Below are positions 2,436-53,462 of a DNA stretch of 53,462 nucleotides, piece after piece. The DNA is from a virus, in the IMG/VR virus record IMGVR_UViG_3300021088_000015, positions 1-53,462 of that record. One strand, written 5' to 3'. A model generated the notes under the pieces. That model saw nothing but the letters and a program-made list of their open reading frames with translations. It searched no databases and was not told where the DNA came from. Numbering within the stretch: position 1 is the first letter of the stretch; each line of letters opens with the position of its first letter. The translations under genes were made by a program, and so were the position numbers.

Positions 2436-3796
2436 GCGCTCACCAGGTTCCAGGCGGCCAACCGCTGGGCCATCAACGCCTCCAGGGCTTCAGGGACGGG
2501 TGCCGGGGCCGGGCCTTCCTCGGGCGGGGGCGGTACCGGCACCCACCCGGGCGGCAGCGCGGGTTCCTGTGTCGCCTTCTCCGCCACGCCCATGTCGGGC
2601 AGGCCCACGGTCTCGAGCACGTCGGCCGGGTCGTATCCGGCGGCCACGAGCGCCGCCGCCGCCTCGCTCTTGTTCTTGAGCTCCAGGGCATCGGCCTCCC
2701 TGTTTCCGGTGACGGGGTCGTCGAAGTCGAGCTCGACGCCCTCGCCCGTTGACCCGAAGAGCGGCAGATAAGAGCAGGCGAGGGTGTCTTTCCACCGGTC
2801 CAGCCGGTCCATGATCAGGAACGATTCGAAGTGTTCCTGGGCGGTCTGGGCGTTGGCGCGGTTGACGTCCTCGACGCTGCCGAGGATCGCCTTGTGCATC
2901 GCGAACGCCTCACGGATCACGTCCCTGGACAGGCCACGCAGGTTCGCGAAGTCCATGTCGCGGACGGTGTGAGCGTTCGGCACCCAAGTCGCGCCCTGCT
3001 CCAGGACGGCGACGCGGTGCGCGGCGGCGACCCCCCGGTGTGTCTCCCGCCACCGGTTCGTGAGCTCGTTCCACTCGTCGTCCTGCAACCTTTTGTCGAC
3101 CTGGATGACGCCGCCGGGGGTGGCGCTGTTGAGGAAGTAGTTCCTGTTCCAGGACGCGCTGTACTTGGCGGCGTCGATGTCGATCAGGACGCTCTGGATG
3201 GGGCCGAGCCCGTGGTAGGGGTCGAACGGGTTCGGGTACTTGATCATGATCACGTCGTTGGGCAGGAGCGGCACCAGCTCACCGTTGGGGCCCCTGTAGA
3301 CGTAACCGGCCAGGTACTTCTCGCGGTCCGGGACCGGCTCCATCCGGTCCGGGCGGACCGGCCACAACCCGATCGGGAAGCTGGCGCGCGGGTCGCGCTG
3401 GATGACCAGGTAGGCCTCGCCGGTGAGGTCGAGGTAGGTCTGGGACAGCTCCCGCAGCGCGAACCCGGACATGAACGGGTTCGGCTTGTTCCACACGGCC
3501 AGCGCGAGGTGCTTGATGACCTCGGTGCGCTGGTCGGAGCCCTTGTCGCCGGTGGTGTAGCGGCGGCGCCCGTCCTGGGGTTGCTCCCGGTACATGCGCC
3601 ATTGCTTCTTGGCGGTCTGGCGGGCGAGCATCGACACGATCGAGAAGACGGTGCCTGAGGCGCCGTAGGCGCGCATGTACCCTTCGGGGTCGCTGTTGCC
3701 GCCGCCGGACAGGCTGGTGAGGGAGTGGTTGCCGCCGCTGTAGGGGACGGGCGAGGCGGGGGCCTTGGCGAGGATCTTCCCGATCAAACTTGGCAT
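2432..3796 (-). CDS. phage portal protein (HK97 family, PF04860-like)
   Basis: The 454-residue product has the size and sequence character of HK97-type portals. It has a glycine-rich N terminus, SGTVFSIVSMLARQTAKKQWRMY near 48-70, and a long middle domain with KYPNPFDPYHGLGPIQ. The Pro/Glu-rich C-terminal tail is disordered and probably not in the ring. Twelve copies form the vertex channel through which terminase pumps DNA. It stands between small head genes and the protease, the usual HK97 order. The start ATG at 3796 overlaps the stop of the preceding gene (TGATG). Confidence 0.9.
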   Translation of the reverse strand: MPSLIGKILAKAPASPVPYSGGNHSLTSLSGGGNSDPEGYMRAYGASGTVFSIVSMLARQTAKKQWRMYREQPQDGRRRYTTGDKGSDQRTEVIKHLALAVWNKPNPFMSGFALRELSQTYLDLTGEAYLVIQRDPRASFPIGLWPVRPDRMEPVPDREKYLAGYVYRGPNGELVPLLPNDVIMIKYPNPFDPYHGLGPIQSVLIDIDAAKYSASWNRNYFLNSATPGGVIQVDKRLQDDEWNELTNRWRETHRGVAAAHRVAVLEQGATWVPNAHTVRDMDFANLRGLSRDVIREAFAMHKAILGSVEDVNRANAQTAQEHFESFLIMDRLDRWKDTLACSYLPLFGSTGEGVELDFDDPVTGNREADALELKNKSEAAAALVAAGYDPADVLETVGLPDMGVAEKATQEPALPPGWVPVPPPPEEGPAPAPVPEALEALMAQRLAAWNLVSA

Positions 3797-22457: not shown

Positions 22458-23063
22458 ATGGATCTCGCCCAACCACAGGTGGACGGGTTGCAGGATCCAG
22501 AGCAAGAGAATGATGTGCTGCGCGCTTTGCGGCGGCAGGCCGAGGCGCTCAGTGCGCAGATCGAAGATAGTCAGCGCCTTCTCCAGGCCACCCGCCAGCG
22601 GATCGTCATGGCCGAGGCCCACGAACGGCAGCGGCGCGCCCGCTACTACGACACCATCGCCGAGCACGGCAACCCGCCGCCCGACCTGACCGACGCGATC
22701 CGCACCCCCACCAGCTCCGGAGACGACTGGGCGATCTGGGTGCCCCTCGACAAAGGCCGCGGTGAGGTCCTGACGGTCATCGACGGCGGTGGCCGGCCAG
22801 ATGACCCGTACGGGGAGGCCGAGGTGCACCGGCATCTACGCGAGGCCGCGAGCACGACCGCTGGCGTGGGTGAGGAGTTCCGGTTGCGGCTGGCGGACGC
22901 ACCGCCCCCGCTGAAGGCCTACATGCTGGGGCCGGTGACTGATCCGCTGCTCGTGGTCAGCTCCGATATTCCGGTGGCCGAGCGCGGAGCGGCCGCGAGG
23001 TGGCTGATACGGATCGCGAAGGACAGGCAGGCGCGTATAGACATGATTGCCCGCCAGGGGTGA
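22458..23063 (+). CDS. coiled-coil hypothetical protein preceding methyltransferase (201 aa)
   Basis: Begins MDLAQPQVDGLQDPEQENDVL, with a coiled coil at about 15-60 (RALRRQAEALSAQIEDSQRLLQATRQRIVMAEAHERQRRARYYDTIAEHG), then an alpha/beta domain DWAIWVPLDKGRGEVLTVIDGGGRP and PPLKAYMLGPVTDPLLVVSSDIPVAERGAAARWLIRIA. The GTG nine bases earlier is also possible. A weak -10 TAGAAG (22444-22449) would give a leaderless mRNA at ATG 22458. Its stop overlaps the region of the next start. No family recognised. Confidence 0.55.
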   Translation: MDLAQPQVDGLQDPEQENDVLRALRRQAEALSAQIEDSQRLLQATRQRIVMAEAHERQRRARYYDTIAEHGNPPPDLTDAIRTPTSSGDDWAIWVPLDKGRGEVLTVIDGGGRPDDPYGEAEVHRHLREAASTTAGVGEEFRLRLADAPPPLKAYMLGPVTDPLLVVSSDIPVAERGAAARWLIRIAKDRQARIDMIARQG

Positions 23064-23065
23064 CC

Positions 23066-23845
23066 ATGGGCGGCATGGACTCCCACCTCCCGCTCGGCGT
23101 CGACATCTGCCACCCCAGTCCCGCCCGCACCTATGACTACCTGCTCGGCGGTAAGGATAACTATCCGGTAGACCGGGAGGCCGCCGAGGCGGTCATCGCG
23201 GTCTGGCCCGGCATGCGCGACATGGGCCGCGCCGCCCGCGCGTGGGCGATGCGCGTGGTCACCTACCTGGCAGAGCAGGGCGTCGATCAGTACCTGGACA
23301 TCGGGTCCGGTCTCCCGACCGCCGAGAACGTTCACCAGGTCGCGCAGCGCATCAACCCGGCCGCGCGCGTCATGTACGCCGACAACGACCCCATCGTCTT
23401 GGCGCACGGCCGCGCCCTGCTGGCCGAGAACGACCGCACCGAGTACGTCGAGGCCGATGTGCGCGACCCGAAGGTGATCCTGGCCGGCGCGGCGAAACTG
23501 CTCGATTTCAGCCGGCCGGTCGCCCTGATCCTGTCGGTGGTCCTGCACTATGTGCCGGAGGATCCCGCCGAGCTGCTCGCCGCCTACGTCCAGGCGCTCG
23601 CTCCGGGCAGTTTCGTGGCGATCAGCCACAACACCACGCAGGGCATGGCGCCCGAACTACGCGAGTGGGTGGCGGGGGTTTTCCCGTCCGGCTGGTATCC
23701 GAGGACGCCCGACGACATTCTGCGGATCTTCCAGGGGCTCGAGCTGGTGGAGCCGGGCCTGGTCACCATTGAGCAGTGGCGTCCCACGGCGGAGCCTGTG
23801 CCGCTTCAGATGCCGCTGCTGGGCGGTATTGCCCGCGTCGGCTAG
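23066..23845 (+). CDS. SAM-dependent methyltransferase, PF04672 type (259 aa)
   Basis: The actinobacterial PF04672 (DUF574/Methyltransf_19) family: PSPARTYDYLLGGKDNYPVDREAAE (18-41), motif I YLDIGSGLPT (76-85), YADNDPIVLAHGRALL, EYVEADVRDP, and a long C-terminal half with LHYVPEDPAELLAAY. The substrate of this family is unknown. AGGGG precedes ATG 23066; an in-frame GTG six bases earlier overlaps the previous stop. It faces a DUF397/XRE pair and shares a CTAG at its stop with the DUF397 gene. Homologues are usually chromosomal in Streptomyces, so host capture is likely. Confidence 0.85.
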   Translation: MGGMDSHLPLGVDICHPSPARTYDYLLGGKDNYPVDREAAEAVIAVWPGMRDMGRAARAWAMRVVTYLAEQGVDQYLDIGSGLPTAENVHQVAQRINPAARVMYADNDPIVLAHGRALLAENDRTEYVEADVRDPKVILAGAAKLLDFSRPVALILSVVLHYVPEDPAELLAAYVQALAPGSFVAISHNTTQGMAPELREWVAGVFPSGWYPRTPDDILRIFQGLELVEPGLVTIEQWRPTAEPVPLQMPLLGGIARVG

Positions 23846-24027
23846 AGGTCGTGCTGACCTGCTTTGATCTGGGTTAGGAGGCCGCGCCAGGCCTGGGGTG
23901 TCAGGTGCAGGTGCGGGTCGCCGGGGCGTTTGGAGTCGCGCAGGCCTACAGCGCCGCGAAGGGCGCGCGCCTCCGCGCAGTTGCCCTGGTGTTCACTGCG
24001 GGTGCTCTTGCGCCATTGTGGCTGCAT
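23842..24027 (-). CDS. DUF397-domain protein (61 aa)
   Basis: MQPQWRKSTRSEHQGNCAEARALRGAVGLRDSKRPGDPHLHLTPQAWRGLLTQI has the DUF397 signature (W-KS-S-GNC-E-A...V-LRDSK-P....L..... W..L). In Streptomyces such proteins pair with Scr1/WhiJ-type regulators and may sequester them. The stop TAG overlaps the methyltransferase stop through a shared CTAG. The start overlaps the upstream regulator by 35 bases, so the two are co-translated. Confidence 0.86.
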   Translation of the reverse strand: MQPQWRKSTRSEHQGNCAEARALRGAVGLRDSKRPGDPHLHLTPQAWRGLLTQIKAGQHDL

Positions 24028-24901
24028 ATGCTCTGTCTCTCGCGGAGCGGAGGTCCGCCATCACGGCGGATATCAGTCTGATCGTATCCAGGCCCTTCGC
24101 GCCTGCGACGACCAATGTCTCAAACGTGAACCGGAAACGGTTCAGCGCGGCGTCCTCTTCAACCCAGATGGGGCCGCCGGTCGTCTCCAGGTAGCCTGCC
24201 TGCGGGCCCAGGAACTCCGGAAACGTCATCAGCACGAACGGCCCCGTTCCGGGCAGGGCGCCTGCCGAGAACGGCACGATGATGAGTTTCACCCGGCCGA
24301 GGCGGGCCATTTTGTCGAGGTGCCCGAGCTGCTGAAGCATCACGTCGTACCCGCCGACGAGGTTGCGCAGTGCGGCCTCGCCGAGCACGACCCACAGGTC
24401 AACCGGGTCGGTGGTGTCGGTGATCAGCTGCGACTGCCGTTCCTGGCGGACCGCGGCGAGCAGCTCGATCTCCTCGTCCGGCACATCTGGGCGTCGGCCG
24501 CGCATGAGGGCGCGGGCGTAGGCGGGGGTCTGGAGCAGCCCGGGGACGACGCTGGGCTCATAGTTCTGGATCTTGGATGCGGCGGCTTCCAGGCCGATGT
24601 AGGTGGAGTACTGGTCGCTCACGCCCCGGTAGGCGAACCACCAGCCGCGTTGGCGTGCTTCGCGGGCGATGCCGAGCAGCTCTTCGCGGCGCGGGTCGGT
24701 GACGCCGTAGAGGTCTAGGAGTGTGGCGACGTCGCTGATCTCGGGTAGCCGCCATTCGTTGCGTTCGGCTCTCGTCAGTTTCGAGGGGTGCCAGTTGAGG
24801 CGTTTGGCGACCTGTGTGACGGTCTGGCCGCTGTCCTCGCGCAGGGTGCGGAGTTCGATGGAGAGCAGGCGGCGGCGCACGGTGGGGCTGCGTCTGTGCA
24901 T
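23993..24901 (-). CDS. Scr1-family XRE regulator with DUF5753 (302 aa)
   Basis: N-terminal HTH (LRTLREDSGQTVTQVAKRLNWHPSKLTRAERNEWRLPEISDVATLLDLYGV) followed by a DUF5753 effector domain with YIGLEAAASKIQNYEPSVVPGLLQTPAYARAL, ERQSQLI and a long C-terminal helix-sheet segment. These regulators pair with DUF397 proteins. ATG 24901 has GGAGG upstream. Together with DUF397 it forms a two-gene unit like WhiJ-type developmental switches; here it probably senses or alters host differentiation or prophage state. Confidence 0.87.
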   Translation of the reverse strand: MHRRSPTVRRRLLSIELRTLREDSGQTVTQVAKRLNWHPSKLTRAERNEWRLPEISDVATLLDLYGVTDPRREELLGIAREARQRGWWFAYRGVSDQYSTYIGLEAAASKIQNYEPSVVPGLLQTPAYARALMRGRRPDVPDEEIELLAAVRQERQSQLITDTTDPVDLWVVLGEAALRNLVGGYDVMLQQLGHLDKMARLGRVKLIIVPFSAGALPGTGPFVLMTFPEFLGPQAGYLETTGGPIWVEEDAALNRFRFTFETLVVAGAKGLDTIRLISAVMADLRSARDRAYAATMAQEHPQ

Positions 24902-25232
24902 CTGGGCCTCCGTGCGCAATTTCGTAACTCCGGGCTTGTGTAGGTATTGCAGATTCTGTAGGCAAGCGGCAGTCTGGTCAAGCGCCAAGCACGGGGTTGG
25001 TGCGCCGAGCCAACGGGGGGTCGGCTAGCAAGAGGAGGGGCGCGGCGGGTGGACTCTCGCGAGATCCATCCCTGGCCGGAAACCCGCCGCGCCCTCTCCA
25101 ATCTAGCTGGCCACCTGATCGTGTTCCCGGGGAGGTAGGAAAGTACCGTCCCGCAAGCGGCTGCCCGGTATCGGCCGGGCATGCGACCCTGGACACCACC
25201 CCCTACCTCCCACGCTCCGCCAGGAGGCCGCC
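24902..25232. other. intergenic 331 bp between regulator and integrase
   Basis: No coding frame seen. It holds the perfect 13-bp inverted repeat at 25038-25050 and 25082-25094 and an inner TCTCGCGAGA (25055-25064), described separately. Both flanking genes read away from it, so their promoters should lie here, and the phage attachment site could lie here too, as is common next to serine integrases. Confidence 0.5.
25038..25094. repeat. 13-bp inverted repeat with inner palindrome, attP or regulatory candidate
   Basis: GGGCGCGGCGGGT (25038-25050) and its complement (25082-25094) enclose TCTCGCGAGA (25055-25064). A terminator is not expected because both neighbouring genes diverge from here. 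Large serine integrases use a roughly 50-bp attP with imperfect inverted arms, so it is a candidate attP; a regulator operator is the alternative. Confidence 0.45.
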
Positions 25233-26828
25233 GTGCCCCCCCAGCTCACCGCCGACCCCATCCCCACCATCGGCTACATCCGCGTCTCGATGGCCCGCGA
25301 GGAGATGATCTCGCCCGCGATTCAGCGGTCCGCGATCGAGGAATGGGCGCGGCGGACCGGCCGGCAGATCGTCCTCTGGATCGAGGACCTCGACCTAAGC
25401 GGCCGCAATTTCCGCCGCAAGGTGATGGGGGGCATCGAGCGCCTGGAGGCGGGGGAGGCGCGTGAGATCGCCTGCTACCGGTACGACCGGTGGGGCCGAA
25501 ACGCGTTCGAGAGCCTGGCCAACATCGCCCGGGTGGAGCAGGCCGGCGGACACGTCCAGTCCGCCACCGAGCCGATGGACGCCGAAACGGCCATCGGCAA
25601 GTACAACCGTTTGAACGCGTTGGGTTTGGCGGAAATGCAGTCCGACATCATCTCGGACAACTGGAAGGCAGCCCTCGCCAACCGGATCGGCCGCCAGATT
25701 CACCCGTCCGGCGCTGCGCAGTTCGGGTATCTACGACTCGGCAGGGTCCGCTCCGAGGACGATCCGACCCGGTTTCGCAGGGATCGCGACGACGCAGCGG
25801 GGGAGCGGTACGAAGCCGATTACGCCGGCGGGGCCGCCGATGTGCTGATCGGCATGTACGACCGGTACATCACCGAGCAGAAGGGGTTTAGGAAGATCGC
25901 GGTCTGGCTCAACGCCCGCGGTATCCTCAACACCCGCGGCGCCCCCTGGTCCGACGTCACCGTCCGGAACGTGCTCGACTCCGGGTTCGGGGCCGGGTAT
26001 CTGCGGATCCACGACAAGGATTGCAAGTGCGGGAAGCCCTCGAGCTGCCGGAAGCGGGAGTACGTTCCCGGCGCGCACGAGCCGATCCTGGACGAGCCGA
26101 CCTGGCAGGCCTACCTCGCGCTCCGGGCCCGCCGCCGGAACCTCCCGCCCCGCTCCCGTTACGCCGCCTACCCGCTTACCTCCCTGATCCTGTGCGGGCA
26201 CTGCTGCTCCGGCATGTCCGCGCAGAACGCGTCGTACGTGCCCGGCCACACCTACCGGTGTACGAGATGGAAGCAGTACGGCGGCGACACCCCGGGCGGC
26301 TGCCGAGGGGTGTTCCCGCAGCGCCTCCGGGTTGAGGCCGCCGTGCGGGCCCGGCTGGCGGAGTGGGCCGATGAGATCGACGGGCGCACTGCCGTGCGGG
26401 AGGCGAAGGCCGCGGTGCGGGTCCCCGCCGCCATCGACCGGGACCGGATCGCCCGCGCCCTCGTGGCCACTGACGCGGCGCTGACCCGGCTGGCCGTCAC
26501 CAACGCCGTCGACCCGATGCCGGAGGGCGTGTATAAGGCGGCCCGCGCCGAGCTGCTCGCCAAACGCACCCAGGCCGAGGCCGAGCTCGAGGCCGCGCCG
26601 GCCGAAGACGCCCCCGCCGTCGACTACCTGCCGATCGTCCGCAGCATCCTGGAAGGCTGGGATTTGTGGCCTGCAGGTCAGGTCCGGGACATGCTGGCGA
26701 AGGTGATCCGCCACGTGAAGGTGTCCCGCCAGCCGGGCGTGCCGACCAAGAGCCGTCACCCTCCGCTCGTGGATGTCACCCCGGTGTGGGAGCCGTGCGA
26801 TTGCGTGGCCTGCGAGCGGGTGCGCTGA
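25233..26828 (+). CDS. large serine integrase (531 aa)
   Basis: Catalyses site-specific integration and, with a directionality factor, excision. Resolvase domain 12-150 with nucleophile Ser19 (GYIRVSMAREEMISPAIQ) and CYRYDRWGRN (81-90). Recombinase domain follows with FGYLRLG and VWLNARGILNTRGAPWSDVTVRNVL. Zinc ribbon at C321, C324, C343, C357 (LILCGHCCSG). An additional Cys cluster (C264, C266, C272) lies just before it. GTG 25233 has AGGAGG six bases upstream. No tyrosine integrase is present. Confidence 0.95.
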   Translation: MPPQLTADPIPTIGYIRVSMAREEMISPAIQRSAIEEWARRTGRQIVLWIEDLDLSGRNFRRKVMGGIERLEAGEAREIACYRYDRWGRNAFESLANIARVEQAGGHVQSATEPMDAETAIGKYNRLNALGLAEMQSDIISDNWKAALANRIGRQIHPSGAAQFGYLRLGRVRSEDDPTRFRRDRDDAAGERYEADYAGGAADVLIGMYDRYITEQKGFRKIAVWLNARGILNTRGAPWSDVTVRNVLDSGFGAGYLRIHDKDCKCGKPSSCRKREYVPGAHEPILDEPTWQAYLALRARRRNLPPRSRYAAYPLTSLILCGHCCSGMSAQNASYVPGHTYRCTRWKQYGGDTPGGCRGVFPQRLRVEAAVRARLAEWADEIDGRTAVREAKAAVRVPAAIDRDRIARALVATDAALTRLAVTNAVDPMPEGVYKAARAELLAKRTQAEAELEAAPAEDAPAVDYLPIVRSILEGWDLWPAGQVRDMLAKVIRHVKVSRQPGVPTKSRHPPLVDVTPVWEPCDCVACERVR

Positions 26829-30870: not shown

Positions 30871-31058
30871 CCACCGCCGAACTCCTCATCCGGCTCCTAC
30901 TCGCCGCATGCTGCTTCCTGGCCGGTACGGGACTGGTCCTGTCCGTGGTCGCCGAACGCCACGGGCCGGTCGCCGCCGCGCTGCTGCTGGTGGCCGGGAC
31001 GACCGCGGTAGCGGTCTACGTCGCCTGGCCGCACCGGGGCGGTGGGGACCGTGGCTGA
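30867..31058 (+). CDS. small two-pass membrane protein, Spd-like (63 aa)
   Basis: MTTAELLIRLLLAACCFLAGTGLVLSVVAERHGPVAAALLLVAGTTAVAVYVAWPHR: two hydrophobic segments with a short loop. Position just before a DUF2637 protein and an FtsK-like pump is that of spread (Spd) genes in Streptomyces plasmids, which aid intramycelial spread. Family membership not certain. Confidence 0.6.
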   Translation: MTTAELLIRLLLAACCFLAGTGLVLSVVAERHGPVAAALLLVAGTTAVAVYVAWPHRGGGDRG

Positions 31059-31812
31059 CCCCATCCGCCCGCCGGCGTCCCGCTGGGCCGTCGTCCCCCT
31101 CGTGGTCGTCGTGATCGGCATCATCCTGGTCGCGTTCCGGGGGTCGTGGGGGGCGATGCGGGACGCCGCGCTCGCCTGCCATTTCGATCAGTCCAGCGCG
31201 ACCCTCTACCCGTTCGCTGTGGACGGCCTCCTGGTCGTCGCGATCCTCGCCGCGGTGCTGCTGCGTCACGATGCCGGGGCGTCCCGGTACACGCTGGGGA
31301 TCATCGCGGGGTACACCGGGGCGTCGTGGCTCGTGAACTTCCTGCACGGCCTTGGTTGGTTCAGTGCCGACCCGGTGACGCACCTGCGTCCCGTTCCGCC
31401 GTGGTACGTGGTGTGCGTGATCGCCTCACTGGTGATCGGCAGTATTTTCCTGGGGTCTCACCTGCTGGTTTACGTGTGGCGTCACCTGTTCCCCGACGCC
31501 GCCCCTGAGCAGGGGCCCGGCGATGTGTACCAAGGCGGTACGGACACCGACCGTGCCGTCCCGCCCGTTCCAGAGCCTCCCGCGAACAAGTACGAGGCGG
31601 CGAAGCGGGCCTACCGGCACAGCCTCACTCCCGGCATGGCGCGCCTGTCCCAGAAGGCGCTCACGGACCAGTTCGGGGTGTCCAAGCGCGAGGCCGGGAC
31701 GGTGCAGTCCGAGGTGTCCCAGGAGATCGCCGACGAAGCCGCCGCGGCGGATGCTCCGGAGCCCGATGACGTACCGGCGCAGCACACCCCGAACGGGCAT
31801 GTGACGGCATGA
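31051..31812 (+). CDS. DUF2637/SpdB-like membrane protein (253 aa)
   Basis: Four hydrophobic segments in residues 10-150: WAVVPLVVVVIGIILVAF, TLYPFAVDGLLVVAILAAVLL, YTLGIIAGYTGASWLVNFLHG and WYVVCVIASLVIGSIFLGSHLLVYVW. The soluble C-terminal tail has a DNA-binding-like helix pair (RLSQKALTDQFGVSKREAGTVQSEV). This is the DUF2637 plan found next to tra/ftsK genes in AICEs, where it is thought to aid DNA spread between hyphal compartments. GTG 31051 overlaps the preceding gene; GTG 31042 is an alternative. Confidence 0.8.
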   Translation: MADPIRPPASRWAVVPLVVVVIGIILVAFRGSWGAMRDAALACHFDQSSATLYPFAVDGLLVVAILAAVLLRHDAGASRYTLGIIAGYTGASWLVNFLHGLGWFSADPVTHLRPVPPWYVVCVIASLVIGSIFLGSHLLVYVWRHLFPDAAPEQGPGDVYQGGTDTDRAVPPVPEPPANKYEAAKRAYRHSLTPGMARLSQKALTDQFGVSKREAGTVQSEVSQEIADEAAAADAPEPDDVPAQHTPNGHVTA

Positions 31813-33647
31813 CCGAAGAATTGGCGCGCCGCCCCCTGTTCGCCGTCCCCGACCCGGTCGAGGACGACAGTGAGGTGATCGTCGGGGAGATCGTCGGCCA
31901 CCCTCCGCTCCCGGTGCGGAGGGTGGCCGTCCGCATGCCGTCGGCCCGGCCGGCCGGGCCCGTCCTGCGCGGGGTCGCCGTCCACGCCGGGTACGGGGTG
32001 GCGGGGCTGTGGCGGGCGGGCACCATGCTCTGGCGGTGGGTGGCGGCCGCCGAGCTGGCGCCGCAGCTCGCCGCGAAACCCGAGCTGGTCATCCGGGAGC
32101 GGGAACGGCGCCGGAAGATCGCAGCCTGGTCGGGTGGCGCATGCCTGGTCGCGGTGGTCTACAGCGCGACCATCTCGTGGGCGTGGCCGACCCTGACCCT
32201 GCTCGCACTCCTGGGCGCCGCGTCCGTAGCCGAGCGGCGCATCCGCCAGTCCGGCCAGCTCGACACCGGCCGGGCCAGCGCAGGCCGCCACCCCGGTACG
32301 AAGGTCGTACGGCAGGCGGTCGCCGCGGCGAAGCTCGGGAAGTTCGACGACATCCGTGTCGTGGGCCCGGTGACGCGGGACCAGGGCATTGCGTGGACTG
32401 CCGTTGTGGAGCTGCCGCCTGGCGGCACGTACACCGCGTCGGCCAAACGCCACGGCGAGCTGGCGGGCGCGCTCGGCGTGGGTGTGTCCCAGCTCGCCAT
32501 CGATCCCGTGCGGGGCCACAACGGGCGGGTGACGCTGTGGTGCGCGGACTCCGACCCTCTCGGTGGGGCGTCGTTGCCGTCCTCGCTGGTCGGGCGCACC
32601 GACGCGTTCGACGTGTACGGGGAGAAAGTGCTGGTCGGGTACGACATCCGGGCCCGGCCCATCGGGTTCAGCCTGCTTGAGCGGTCCCTGCTGATCGGCG
32701 GCGAGCCGGGGGCGGGGAAGTCGGTCGGCTCGAACAACGTCCTGTGCTCCGTGGCCCTCGACCCCCGCATGCCCATGTGGTTGATCGACGGGAAGGGCGG
32801 CGCTGACCTGTCCGATTACGAGGACATCGCCGCCCGGTTCCTGGCCGAACCGGACCCGAAGGCGCTACTGGGCATCATCGGTGACGCCCAGGACGACATG
32901 TCGGACCGGTACCGGGCGCTGAAGGGGGCGGGGGAGAAGAAGCTGACCGGTGACCTCGCCGAGGAGCTCGGCTTCCACCAGGCGCTCTTTCACATCGATG
33001 AGCTCCAGTTCTTCGTGGCGTCGAGTCTCGGTGATGAGATCACGGACGGCCTGTGGGACCTGGCGTCGCGGGGCCGTGCGGCCGGCTGGTCGGTGTCGGC
33101 TGCGACGCAGCGCCCCGGTGGTGAGGTCGTGAAGACGAAGTTGCGCGACATCCTGTCGATTCGGTGGGCGTTGTCGTGTACGACCCCGCAGGCCAGTGAC
33201 ACGATCCTCGGCCAGGGGTACGCGTCGCAGGGCTTCAACGCGCAGAGCATCGACATCGAAACGCAGCGGGGCGGCGGCTATCTGAAGGTCGGTGCGACGC
33301 CGGTTCTGATGCGTACGGGGATGCTGACCGATAACCAGATCAAGGGGATCACCCGGCGGGCGTACAAGCTGCGGGAGCAGGCCGGGACGTTGCCGAAGTC
33401 CGACGGCCGGCCCGCTGTGCGTCTGCTCCGTGCGGTGCTGGCGGCGATGGGTGCACGGGACAAGGTCGCGACCGTCGAGATCCTCACCGCGCTGGCCGGG
33501 GTGGCGGAGTATGCGGAGTGGTCGGCGGAGCAGTTGGCGGACGCGTTGCGTCCGCTCGGGGTGCGGCCGGGCGATCAGTGGATCAGTGGATCGAACCTGC
33601 GCGGTTACCGCCGTGCGGACGTGGCCCGGGCCCTCGAACGGGCCTAG
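31809..33647 (+). CDS. FtsK/SpoIIIE-family DNA translocase, TraB-like (612 aa)
   Basis: Membrane-anchored hexameric DNA pump. Hydrophobic segments at about 109-140 (GGACLVAVVYSATISWAWPTLTLLALLGAASV), Walker A GEPGAGKS (298-305), Walker B LFHIDELQF (393-401), then a sensor/Arg segment AATQRPGGEVVKTKLRDILSIRWAL. The C-terminal 80 residues form a winged helix (AEQLADALRPLGVRPGDQWISGSNLRGYRRADVARAL), the part that reads clt repeats in TraB. ATGA-coupled to DUF2637. In Streptomyces plasmids and AICEs this protein moves double-stranded DNA between mycelia. A packaging or segregation role in the phage is the alternative. Confidence 0.87.
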   Translation: MTEELARRPLFAVPDPVEDDSEVIVGEIVGHPPLPVRRVAVRMPSARPAGPVLRGVAVHAGYGVAGLWRAGTMLWRWVAAAELAPQLAAKPELVIRERERRRKIAAWSGGACLVAVVYSATISWAWPTLTLLALLGAASVAERRIRQSGQLDTGRASAGRHPGTKVVRQAVAAAKLGKFDDIRVVGPVTRDQGIAWTAVVELPPGGTYTASAKRHGELAGALGVGVSQLAIDPVRGHNGRVTLWCADSDPLGGASLPSSLVGRTDAFDVYGEKVLVGYDIRARPIGFSLLERSLLIGGEPGAGKSVGSNNVLCSVALDPRMPMWLIDGKGGADLSDYEDIAARFLAEPDPKALLGIIGDAQDDMSDRYRALKGAGEKKLTGDLAEELGFHQALFHIDELQFFVASSLGDEITDGLWDLASRGRAAGWSVSAATQRPGGEVVKTKLRDILSIRWALSCTTPQASDTILGQGYASQGFNAQSIDIETQRGGGYLKVGATPVLMRTGMLTDNQIKGITRRAYKLREQAGTLPKSDGRPAVRLLRAVLAAMGARDKVATVEILTALAGVAEYAEWSAEQLADALRPLGVRPGDQWISGSNLRGYRRADVARALERA

Positions 33648-34039: not shown

Positions 34040-34516
34040 GTGATCAACGCAAGACAGGCGGCCCGTACCGCTACCGGGATGGCCCTCCTCGGGCTGCTCC
34101 TCATGGGCGCCCAGAAGTGCGACACGACCACCAGCGGCGGAGGAGGTGGCGGCGGCGGCGCGGGCTCGCAGGGCGACTGCACGTTCCAGGAGGTGCGCCC
34201 GCCGTCCACGTTCCCGGCGCCGGACGGCAGCACGCTATGGATCACCTCGGCGGTGATCGTGGCATGCGACCCGCCGCCGACCTCGCACCGCCTGGTGATG
34301 CAGCTCCAGAAGTACTCGGGTGGCGCCTGGGTGACGATCTGGATTGAGCACCCGGACACGACCATCCCGGGTGCGGGCGGATACAGGTCCGTGATCGTCT
34401 ACAACGCCTGCGACCCGGGGCGGTGGCGCCTGAAGGTGCGGATCACCGGCAGCACCAAAGCTGGCACCCCGTACCAGGTGGACCAAGTCACCACCACGTC
34501 ACGGATTACGTGCTGA
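34040..34516 (+). CDS. secreted or anchored protein with Gly linker (158 aa)
   Basis: GTG 34040 with AAGGAG. The N terminus (RQAARTATGMALLGLLLMGAQKC) is a signal-peptide-like segment; Cys27 follows MGAQK, which is not a standard lipobox. A poly-Gly linker (33-43) leads to a beta-rich domain with four Cys, likely an extracellular disulfide-bonded fold. No family recognised. Possible surface exclusion or phage-receptor masking role in the lysogen (speculative). Confidence 0.65.
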   Translation: MINARQAARTATGMALLGLLLMGAQKCDTTTSGGGGGGGGAGSQGDCTFQEVRPPSTFPAPDGSTLWITSAVIVACDPPPTSHRLVMQLQKYSGGAWVTIWIEHPDTTIPGAGGYRSVIVYNACDPGRWRLKVRITGSTKAGTPYQVDQVTTTSRITC

Positions 34517-34525
34517 GATGGTGTC

Positions 34526-34843
34526 ATGACAGAGCGAGATGAGCCGGGCCTGCTCACGGCGGGACTCCGGTACGGCGGCCCGTCGCGTCGCCGCTGGTGG
34601 CGCAGGCTACGCCGCCGCCCCCGTACGGAACCCCAGGCGTCCTGGATCCTCCAGTACTTCGACACCACGGGCTGGACGCTGAGGCTCCGCAGCTCAACAC
34701 CGGGCGACCTTGAGTTGCCGCTGGCGTTCGCCAACCGGGACGTGCCCGCCAGCGACCGTGAGGCCGCTCACGAGTGGGCGTTGAGCGTGCTGCCGGCCGG
34801 TGTTGAGCACACGGTCAGCATGGTGTCCGAGCGCCAGAAGTAA
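34526..34843 (+). CDS. hypothetical protein (105 aa)
   Basis: MTERDEPGLLTAGLRYGGPSRRRWWRRLRRRPRTEPQ: basic N terminus, then SWILQYFDTTGWTLRLRSSTPGDLELPLAFANRDVPASDREAAHEWALSVLPAGVEHTVSMV, an alpha/beta domain. No family recognised. Confidence 0.58.
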   Translation: MTERDEPGLLTAGLRYGGPSRRRWWRRLRRRPRTEPQASWILQYFDTTGWTLRLRSSTPGDLELPLAFANRDVPASDREAAHEWALSVLPAGVEHTVSMVSERQK

Positions 34844-35247: not shown

Positions 35248-35262
35248 CCCGATGGGTATCCG
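35248..35262. repeat. cassette-flanking direct repeat, left
   Basis: CCCGATGGGTATCCG, identical to 36287-36301, 1,039 bp apart. It brackets the operon 35335-36206. A hairpin GGGAATG-TG-CATTCCC (35235-35250) touches it. Confidence 0.6.
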
Positions 35263-35282
35263 GGGAGCCAGTGGTTCGGGAA

Positions 35283-35334
35283 GACCTTAAGGTTCCTCTT
35301 GCGGAGTGACCTTAAGGTCTGTAAGGTTTCACTC
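35283..35334 (+). promoter_or_regulatory. leaderless promoter with two CCTTAAGG operators
   Basis: -35 TTGCGG (35299-35304), 17-bp spacer, -10 TAAGGT (35322-35327), then seven bases to ATG 35335. A perfect palindrome GACCTTAAGGTC (35308-35319) fills the spacer and a near copy GACCTTAAGGTT (35283-35294) lies 25 bp upstream. Typical autoregulated toxin-antitoxin layout. Confidence 0.68.
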
Positions 35335-35577
35335 ATGAGCCTACAGCGCATGCCGATCACCCCCGCCACGTTCCGGCGTCTCAAGGCGGCCTCCCTGCGT
35401 GGCGGCCTCGTACTCGACCTCCTCCCCGAGCAAGTCGAGCAGGCGCTCCGCTATCGACTGATCGAGCAGGACGGGAACGAACTCCGGATCACGCCCGCAG
35501 GACGCACGGCATGGGCAGAGCGCGAGGCGCTCGGCGAATACGACCTCGCCAGCATCATCTCTGCCGAGGACGCGTGA
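35335..35577 (+). CDS. winged-helix-like small protein of the Phd cassette (80 aa)
   Basis: MSLQRMPITPATFRRLKAASLRGGLVLDLLPEQVEQALRYRLIEQDGNELRITPAGRTAWAEREALGEYDLASIISAEDA. The middle (LLPEQVEQALRYRLIEQDGNELRITPAGRTAW) looks like a winged helix with a short hairpin wing. Leaderless start from the promoter at 35299-35327; its stop overlaps the next ATG (TGATG). Likely autoregulator or partner of the Phd fusion. Confidence 0.68.
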   Translation: MSLQRMPITPATFRRLKAASLRGGLVLDLLPEQVEQALRYRLIEQDGNELRITPAGRTAWAEREALGEYDLASIISAEDA

Positions 35578-36206
35578 TGGCCGAGCAGATCGGCATCGAG
35601 GACGCCCGAAAGAACCTCGGCCCGCTCGTCCACCGGGTTCAGCACGGTGGAGCTGAGATCATCCTGACCCGCAACGGCAAGCCCGCAGCCCGCATCGTCC
35701 CGATCCCCCAGGAGCCCGCCGTGACCGACACCTACACCGACGCGATCCGCGACGCCTACCTTGGCGCCCGTAAGCGGCAGTGGGCCACCATCCACGACCA
35801 CGTCGCCGCCTACCTGACCGGAACACCCGCCGACCTGTTCGAGGTGCCGTGGTGGCGGGCGTGGTTCGGTAACACCCAGACCTCCCAGACGGCCCTGACC
35901 GTACGCCGGGACGAGTTCGCCGCCGCGCTCGGCGAGGTGGTCGACCTGGAGATGCTGCGGATCGCGGTCGCCACCGGCAGGCAGTACGACGAACCGGCGG
36001 TGCTGGCCGAGGTCGACATGGACGCCGCCTACCTGCGGGTAGCCGCATCCGTACTGCGCGCCATCGTCACCGAGGAACTGGACCTGGCGCGCAGGAGTGC
36101 CCTGTTCCAGGCCGAGGACGAAGACGGCGAGGTCAACGAGGAACTCGCACTGCGAGGTGTGGGAGAGCTCGAACAGCGCGTCCTGGCCATGCTGCCCCCG
36201 GAGTAA
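35577..36206 (+). CDS. Phd/YefM antitoxin domain fused to unknown 150-aa domain (209 aa)
   Basis: Residues 3-48 are a Phd/YefM DNA-binding antitoxin fold: IGIEDARKNLGPLVHRVQHGGAEIILTRNGKPAARIVPI. Residues about 50-209 form a helical domain (YTDAIRDAYLGARKRQWATIHDHVAAYL, FEVPWWRAWFGNTQTSQTALTVRRDEFAAAL, DLEMLRIAVATGRQYDEPAVLAEVDMDAAYLRVAASVLRAIVTEELDLARRS) with no match I recognise. No Doc, RelE or other toxin gene is next to it. It could be a stand-alone repressor, an antitoxin against a chromosomal toxin, or a self-contained toxin-antitoxin fusion. Confidence 0.72.
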   Translation: MAEQIGIEDARKNLGPLVHRVQHGGAEIILTRNGKPAARIVPIPQEPAVTDTYTDAIRDAYLGARKRQWATIHDHVAAYLTGTPADLFEVPWWRAWFGNTQTSQTALTVRRDEFAAALGEVVDLEMLRIAVATGRQYDEPAVLAEVDMDAAYLRVAASVLRAIVTEELDLARRSALFQAEDEDGEVNEELALRGVGELEQRVLAMLPPE

Positions 36207-36222
36207 TGACCCCGCACAACGA

Positions 36223-36254
36223 AACGCCCCGCCCTCCGAAGAGAGCGGGGCGTT
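36223..36254. terminator. 10-bp stem terminator, AACGCCCCGC family
   Basis: AACGCCCCGC (36223-36232) pairs with GCGGGGCGTT (36245-36254), right after the Phd-fusion gene. It shares its arm sequence with the terminators at 36605 and 36890. Confidence 0.68.
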
Positions 36255-36286
36255 CGTGCTGCCGCCCGTCCATGGCGCGGCAACTG

Positions 36287-36301
36287 CCCGATGGGTATCC
36301 G
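36287..36301. repeat. cassette-flanking direct repeat, right
   Basis: CCCGATGGGTATCCG, exact copy of 35248-35262. The two copies enclose the Phd cassette and its terminator. Confidence 0.6.
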
Positions 36302-36357: not shown

Positions 36358-36597
36358 ATGAACGACCGCCCGAACCCTGACCCGCAGTACGGGCCCCGGA
36401 TCTGCCCGTACGGGCACCCAATGCTGCCGGGCCGGAAACTGGTCGGCTGGTTGGCGTGTTTCTGTTTCTCCCCAGGACCGCAGCACGCTCGCGGGCACCG
36501 CACGTACCAGTGCCGGGCGTGCGAGGAGGCGGGGTGGACGACGGTGGCGTACTACCCGGCGCATCTCGGCGGCGGGCGGCCGGAGACGCGGTGGTGA
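36358..36597 (+). CDS. zinc-ribbon small protein (79 aa)
   Basis: ATG 36358 (GTG three bases earlier also possible, with a -10-like TATCGT at 36344-36349 that would make it leaderless). MNDRPNPDPQYGPRICPYGHPMLPGRKLVGWLACFCFSPGPQHARGHRTYQCRACEEAGWTTVAYYP. CPYGH, CFC, CRAC give one or two zinc sites. Similar Streptomyces proteins exist; role unknown. Confidence 0.62.
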   Translation: MNDRPNPDPQYGPRICPYGHPMLPGRKLVGWLACFCFSPGPQHARGHRTYQCRACEEAGWTTVAYYPAHLGGGRPETRW

Positions 36598-36604
36598 ACA
36601 ACGA

Positions 36605-36643
36605 AACGCCCCGCTCCCATCGTTGAGTGGGGAGCGGGGCGTT
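36605..36643. terminator. 14-bp stem terminator, AACGCCCCGC family
   Basis: AACGCCCCGCTCCC (36605-36618) pairs with GGGAGCGGGGCGTT (36630-36643). Confidence 0.72.
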
Positions 36644-36889
36644 CGGTGCTTCCGCCCGCTTACGTCCGCGCGAGGGAAGCAACCACGCGGTCAGCAGGAT
36701 CGGGCGCCCAGACGACGCTATTTCCCTAATGACCTGTCCGGCGTCAACCACGGTACGTCGGCCCGTAGATACAGCGCTGGTCAGGAGGTTCGGTACGCCC
36801 CGGCAAAGCCTGGGAAGTTCCCCGGGGTGCGGCATGTCGCTTGTCGATCCGTTGCCGACGATAGCGGATCAGGCCGACAGACCGCAGCG
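36644..36889. other. gap between terminators, no convincing gene
   Basis: No frame has a good start, ribosome site and end within the gap. On the minus strand one stretch reads QVIREIASSGRPILLTAW, faintly like a Phd core, but it runs into the terminator. No repeat or RNA gene recognised. Confidence 0.5.
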
Positions 36890-36932
36890 AAACGCCCCGC
36901 ACGTCAACGGGGAGAAGACATGCGGGGCGTTT
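36890..36932. terminator. 12-bp stem terminator, AACGCCCCGC family
   Basis: AAACGCCCCGCA (36890-36901) pairs with TGCGGGGCGTTT (36921-36932), followed on the plus strand by CTGG and preceded on the minus strand by AAACG; it can end the leftward 37207 transcript. Confidence 0.68.
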
Positions 36933-36991
36933 CTGGAACTAGCCCGTTCCGGGATCAGACGGTACGCCCGCGATAGGCGGAGCGCCAGAGG

Positions 36992-53062: not shown

Positions 53063-53462
53063 TCAGCGCGATGCGAGCTGGACGACGGGCGAGAGGGTCG
53101 GCCCGCCGTTCTTCGGCGTGATCGCGGACTGCAACCACGGCTTGCCGTCGACCCTTTCAATGACCCGGTACGCTGTCTTGTCCAGCGCGAACTTGTAGTG
53201 CTCGGAGCTGGACGTCTGCATGGCCATGCGGTCGCCGACCAAGTAGTAGCTGAGGTCGACGAACGAGATGTCGCCCGTGGTGCCCAGCGGGCCCGTCTTT
53301 TCGGTGAAGTAGAGGGGCCTTCCGAGAATGGACACGGGCGGGGAGTCCATTCCGCCGTTACCGCCCGCGAAATTGCCGATCCAGACCGGGCCACCGCCCG
53401 TACCGACGGACAGGGCCATGGTCGCGAGCTGCGGGAACGTGTCGATGGACGCGATCCAGCAC
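53063..53462 (-). CDS. HK97-fold major capsid protein (C-terminal part)
   Basis: Continuation of the gene at 1-1126. Ends with MALSVGTGGGPVWIGNFAGGNGGMDSPPVSILGRPLYFTEKTGPLGTTGDISFVDLSYYLVGDRMAMQTSSSEHYKFALDKTAYRVIERVDGKPWLQSAITPKNGGPTLSPVVQLASR. The ILGRPLYFTEKTGPLGT and the DRMAMQTSSSEHYKF segments are typical HK97 P- and A-domain parts. Stop at 53063. Confidence 0.93.
   Translation of the reverse strand, partial: CWIASIDTFPQLATMALSVGTGGGPVWIGNFAGGNGGMDSPPVSILGRPLYFTEKTGPLGTTGDISFVDLSYYLVGDRMAMQTSSSEHYKFALDKTAYRVIERVDGKPWLQSAITPKNGGPTLSPVVQLASR
53326..53462. repeat. terminal overlap, right copy
   Basis: Identical to 1-137 apart from G53336/T11. See the left copy. Confidence 0.93.

Follow-up and report, generated by a model that had tools for sequence, protein, structure and literature searches.

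A Phd-domain operon with a conserved leaderless promoter and exchangeable parts in a temperate actinophage

Antitoxins are modular proteins, in which a DNA-binding domain is joined to an independent and exchangeable neutralising element (PMC10440598). The two-gene operon described here lies in the virus record IMGVR_UViG_3300021088_000015, the whole of which (53,462 bases) was analysed and is called the window hereafter. It resembles type II toxin-antitoxin (TA) systems of the Phd/YefM kind (PF02604, TIGR01552) in its N-terminal Phd domain, in the palindromes over its promoter and in its overlapping genes, but it differs from them in lacking a recognised adjacent toxin, in having the partner gene first and in carrying a long unrecognised C-terminal domain rather than a short toxin-binding tail. 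With zeta modules (PezAT or epsilon-zeta, and the pairs of Phd and zeta in G050 and G065) the comparison is closer on one side, since the Phd domain and promoter of the window are of the same subfamily as those of G050 and G065, yet the phage has no zeta toxin and its C-terminal domain has no significant similarity to theirs. Acr-Aca fusions are known to inhibit Cas9 and to regulate their own gene (PMC13131331). Like AcrIIA11 and AcrIIA15, gene 2 of the window would be a phage gene for an autoregulatory DNA-binding domain joined to an effector domain that varies; unlike them, it uses a Phd fold, which is not a known Aca domain, and it has no known CRISPR target. Finally, genes 30-31 of mycobacteriophage Sbash form a small variable operon, a lysogenically expressed two-gene phage defence (PMC6426596). 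Sbash 30-31, CarolAnn 43-44 and the cluster N defence operons share with the window the format of a small variable two-gene accessory operon in a temperate actinophage; they are defences expressed from the prophage, whereas the window operon is likened to them by its layout. On balance, we lean to the view that a temperate actinophage carries here an accessory (“moron”) operon that regulates itself and has exchangeable effectors.

The record is that of a temperate tailed actinophage. Profile searches recognised terminase, portal, head protease, tape measure and endolysin genes and a large serine integrase at 25233-26828, and the host would be found among soil actinobacteria. An exact 126-bp direct repeat is present at both ends (12-137 and 53337-53462), suggesting a complete genome, which was probably circularly assembled or is terminally redundant. 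The operon is flanked by the integration and regulation region on one side and by convergent lysis and tail genes on the other. In the former, a SAM methyltransferase gene (PF04672) and apparent DUF397/XRE-type regulator genes adjoin the serine integrase (23000-26828), and regulator pairs of similar look were seen in two other loci, L057 and L058. At 31042-33647, a DUF2637 protein is followed by an FtsK/SpoIIIE-like ATPase, an arrangement that recalls actinobacterial conjugative elements, yet it lies inside a phage genome.

The predicted two-gene operon is real, and its genes overlap by one base at TGATG (Table 1). Residues 4-45 of the gene 2 product match Pfam PhdYeFM_antitox (E=5.8e-10) and TIGR01552 phd_fam is matched as well, both over their curated cut-offs (39.2 bits against 29.8 for PF02604 and 39.4 bits against 20.8 for TIGR01552). 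Residues 49-209, as had been predicted, are unrecognised, with no match in Pfam, PHROGs, NCBIfam or PADLOC and chance-level matches only in the PDB; T4-lysozyme-like entries among the latter were dismissed as chance (E=0.3). Single-sequence prediction makes this C-terminal domain mostly helical. The proposed winged helix of gene 1 is plausible from its H-H-E-E-H order and from weak matches to HTH-type folds, but these matches are not significant. Single-sequence structure models were weak (pLDDT 47.7 for gene 2, an unusably poor AlphaFold model, and 66.4 for gene 1), and fold searches with them returned no significant match, those with gene 2 giving noise. No known toxin lies beside the antitoxin domain, in agreement with the original prediction: gene 1 matches no family in four profile libraries, and neither a zeta toxin nor a second Phd gene was found in the whole record. 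Searches with both full-length proteins among IMG/VR and INPHARED phages gave no relative, and full-length gene 2 matched, among GTDB contigs and PLSDB plasmids, one Streptomyces plasmid only, through the Phd domain. As for the strong terminator that had been proposed, the hairpin does fold strongly (-31.1 kcal/mol for 36210-36262), but it has no U-tract. A closely similar hairpin is found 3′ of the Phd gene in L012. Within the window, three terminator-like hairpins with a common GAAACGCCCCGC...GCGGGGCGTT were noticed, at 36216-36260, 36598-36645 and 36886-36935.

Table 1. Positions of the features of the operon and its surroundings in the window.
Feature	Position	Strand	Remarks
15-bp direct repeat, left copy	35248-35262	+	exact match; absent from L058
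Upstream operator ACCTTAAGGT, perfect palindrome	35284-35293	+	extra copy, not at such a position in relatives
-35 element TTGCGG	35299-35304	+	17 nt upstream of TAAGGT; TTGACA in L096
Core operator ACCTTAAGGT in promoter spacer	35309-35318	+	same position in nine loci
-10 element TAAGGT	35322-35327	+	7 nt before start codon; spacing invariant in nine loci
Gene 1	35335-35577	+	80 aa, winged-helix-like, leaderless start; exchangeable slot
Gene 2	35577-36206	+	209 aa, Phd domain and unrecognised C-terminal domain
Phd/YefM domain, residues 1-52	35577-35732	+	conserved island, 86% DNA identity to L058
Gene 2 C-terminal domain	35733-36203	+	about 157-160 aa, no detectable relative
Terminator-like hairpin	36219-36257	+	RNAfold; no U-tract
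15-bp direct repeat, right copy	36287-36301	+	exact match; absent from L058
Variable slot exchanged between window phage and L058	34798-36600		holds two conserved islands; blastn and register scan

The paired operators and the leaderless promoter were both borne out. The motif CCTTAAGG occurs twice in the record, where 0.16 occurrences are expected, and both sites are at the operon (35285 and 35310). The promoter reads TTGCGG-17 nt-TAAGGT-7 nt-ATG, which would put the start of transcription on the ATG of gene 1 or right beside it; since the Phd gene is second in this operon, the leaderless start belongs to gene 1. The same promoter, with a 17-nt spacer containing CCTTAAG, then TAAGGT, 7 nt and a leaderless ATG or GTG, is common to nine loci (the window, L003, L058, L012, L016, L025, L026, L029 and L096), and in several of the relatives the -10 TAAGGT forms a second CCTTAAGG site. 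L012, L016, L058 and L096 were found through the promoter motif itself, and the similarity of the nine promoters is partly descent, because the loci share gene ancestry to some degree.

These genes belong to a subfamily of actinobacterial Phd proteins, “GIExARK”, with one common promoter and with members in phages, a plasmid, and chromosomes or chromosomal islands. In the Streptomyces plasmid, protein search revealed a Phd domain 55% identical to that of the window, followed by an unrelated C-terminus, and CCTTAAGGTCCTTAAGGT plus 7 nt stands directly before its ATG. Scans of virus and genome contigs with the promoter pattern gave, among loci above 65% G+C, the Phd genes L012 and L016 and an operon with Phd as the second gene (L011/L058). 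Matches from low- and mid-GC loci (L004-L010, L013-L015, L017 and L018) were set aside as unrelated, none of them preceding a Phd gene. A protein search of 347 genomes of one order, Streptosporangiales-type as judged from L016 being a Streptosporangiaceae MAG, yielded more Phd genes, of which L025, L026 and L029 have the same promoter. The association was also seen by a genome-wide motif search blind to proteins (CCTTAAGN{4,5}TAAGGTN{6,8}RTG), in which five of the six matches in the 347 genomes stand immediately in front of a Phd gene; one of the five, G094, had not been recognised earlier as a subfamily member. A class-wide sample gave two matches, both already known members, and none came from 392 genomes of a second order with Streptomyces-like members. 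Phd genes outside the subfamily have other upstream palindromes, for example of the GTACA type or the TTAGCTAAG type. The simplest reading is that CCTTAAGG is the site recognised by this Phd subfamily, whose members would use it to repress their own promoter. The original prediction of a self-contained and autoregulated unit thus holds in the sense of a probably autoregulated operon, the same promoter-operator standing before the Phd genes of the subfamily in unrelated hosts. A phage-wide CCTTAAGG regulon was rejected, with two sites in the record and one double site in that of L058.

How the operon changes between phages can be followed at high resolution in one pair, the window and L058 (IMGVR_UViG_3300050821_006235), the sole related phage found in IMG/VR, which were compared by blastn and an ungapped register scan. 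The left flank (34094-34797) is 90% identical and homology ends at about 34797; it reappears in an island covering the promoter and first codons (35298-35340; 86%, E=2.6e-7) and in another that takes in the 3′ end of gene 1 and the Phd domain as far as residue 52 (35571-35732; 86%, E=1e-48), and resumes at 36601 in a right flank that is 96% identical to 36900. Identity drops to background within 20 bases outside both islands and the right flank, and within about 50 bases past the left flank. In the slot of gene 1, L058 carries a gene whose 134-aa product shows a ParB-like GSHR motif and a weak match to phrog_498 (E=0.022), and the C-terminus of its Phd protein is an unrelated stretch of about 85 residues. 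Hence, in this phage pair, comparison at base resolution shows a fixed promoter and Phd domain beside a replaced gene 1 and a replaced Phd C-terminus. A further Phd gene, L024 (from G317), has the same linker, PIPQEPA, as the Phd proteins of the window and L058, a GTACAC-type upstream palindrome and a different C-terminus, and is perhaps another exchange at the same joint.

Replacement of both gene 1 and the C-terminal domain is also what partner swapping predicts for a complete TA module with the toxin first, where gene 1 would be an unrecognised toxin and gene 2 its antitoxin, binding DNA through Phd and neutralising through the C-terminal domain, with the ParB-like gene of L058 as the corresponding toxin. 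The overlap of the two genes, the apparently autoregulatory promoter and the presence, within this Phd subfamily, of clear TA relatives linked to zeta toxins would fit such a module. We nevertheless regard it, the role of the L058 gene included, as rather unlikely, for gene 1 resembles a DNA-binding winged helix and no known toxin, the Phd fusions of L003, L012 and L055 have no partner gene in the operon, and a domain of 160 aa is long for a neutralising tail. The joining of one conserved DNA-binding domain to unrelated variable domains in a single phage slot brings to mind a fusion of an autorepressor with an anti-defence inhibitor, after the logic of AcrIIA11 and AcrIIA15 (PMC13131331), in which Phd would regulate and the C-terminal part would inhibit a host defence protein. 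This is unlikely, given that no Aca of Phd fold is known here, that two family members are by position plainly zeta antitoxins, and that a plasmid and chromosomal islands carry the Phd module too.

Those two members, L056 and L054, have zeta toxin genes directly 3′ of the Phd gene (PF06414, E=9e-36 and 1.5e-32, respectively). Their C-terminal domains are 46% identical (E 4e-18), the only exception among the C-terminal domains of the subfamily, which are otherwise mutually unrelated by blastp. Both are good candidates for Phd-zeta TA pairs (L054 8222-9857 and L056 7597-9208). Our literature search found no published description of a Phd-domain antitoxin paired with a zeta toxin, and this pairing, which the present analysis adds, is apparently unreported. 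Because these two chromosomal members precede zeta toxins, an antitoxin origin of the phage Phd module is likely. The phage members themselves have no recognisable toxin, and five loci (the window, L058, L059, L055 and L098) have their Phd gene at the junction with endolysin, holin-like or tail genes, such neighbours in the latter four being called by reading translations. Orphan copies of this kind in phages and a plasmid, together with the zeta-linked members, might suggest that the product is an orphan antitoxin, overcoming abortive infection by neutralising zeta or other toxins of the host; it is a distinctly unlikely reading, as the C-terminal domain of the window is not significantly similar to the zeta-partnered ones (blastp, E=0.2-0.4 over 34 residues).

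For the accessory operon that we favour, a mechanism may be proposed from the observed anatomy of the operon, the conservation of its promoter, the association of this promoter with Phd genes, the modular replacement and the synteny. The Phd domain of gene 2 would dimerise and bind the CCTTAAGG palindromes over the spacer and the -10 element, and the operon would in this way repress its own leaderless promoter and keep its expression low and self-limited, most likely from the prophage. The cargo would consist of gene 1 together with the domain that follows Phd in the fusion, swapped as modules between phages, with the promoter and the Phd domain as the fixed sockets. The module probably descends from a modular type II antitoxin; on two chromosomes, its relatives precede zeta toxins. 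As to its effect, one may conjecture that the cargo is most probably directed at rival phages or at the defences of the host, either by itself or as a partner resembling an antitoxin. What the phage pair adds is that the DNA-binding domain of an antitoxin and its promoter can stay in place through a change of both the partner gene and the domain that neutralises or acts as effector.

A broader and tentative possibility, which we would not yet bet on, is that the leaderless Phd-autorepressed promoter serves as a standard socket for unrelated anti-defence or exclusion effectors at the lysis-gene junction in phages of Streptosporangiales-type hosts, the effector being either fused to Phd or encoded by the preceding gene, as a Phd-based counterpart of Acr-Aca operons. 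Historically, aca genes led to anti-CRISPRs, and the promoter could offer a parallel handle. If the promoter-Phd socket does mark accessory effectors, it would provide a 30-base handle for phage effectors in high-GC actinobacteria, and new effectors could be found by promoter search.

It was originally suggested that the operon is a discrete and mobile 1-kb cassette flanked by 15-bp direct repeats. Two exact copies of CCCGATGGGTATCCG do flank the operon, and no third site exists in the 53,462 bases, even at 3 mismatches. Such a pair is not unusual, however, as exact direct repeats of 15 bp or more form 28 pairs in the record, and that of the operon is among the shortest. With spacing up to 1.5 kb, 13 pairs were observed against 0.43 expected from composition (third-order Markov sequence), which makes closely spaced repeats a general feature of this phage genome. 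Moreover, L058 has the locus without the repeats, keeping the Phd gene and the promoter although gene 1 and the C-terminal domain differ there, and the breaks in homology do not coincide with the repeats. No recombinase was found inside the unit, nor any empty site. Movement of such a cassette between copies of the repeat is contradicted by these data and is highly improbable, and the repeats are considered incidental to the operon. On its right, the exchanged block ends inside the second of two terminator-like hairpins (36216 and 36598) that have 17 bases in common, and repeated terminator hairpins would make better recombination points than the 15-bp repeats.

The stretch at 36601-36900, with the highest identity to L058 of the shared stretches found, holds two hairpins and no clear gene. 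Small cysteine-containing, zinc-ribbon-like proteins that are mutually alike are encoded at 36358-36597 of the window and at 3094-3612 (- strand) of L012; they adjoin the Phd gene in both phages, on opposite sides of it.
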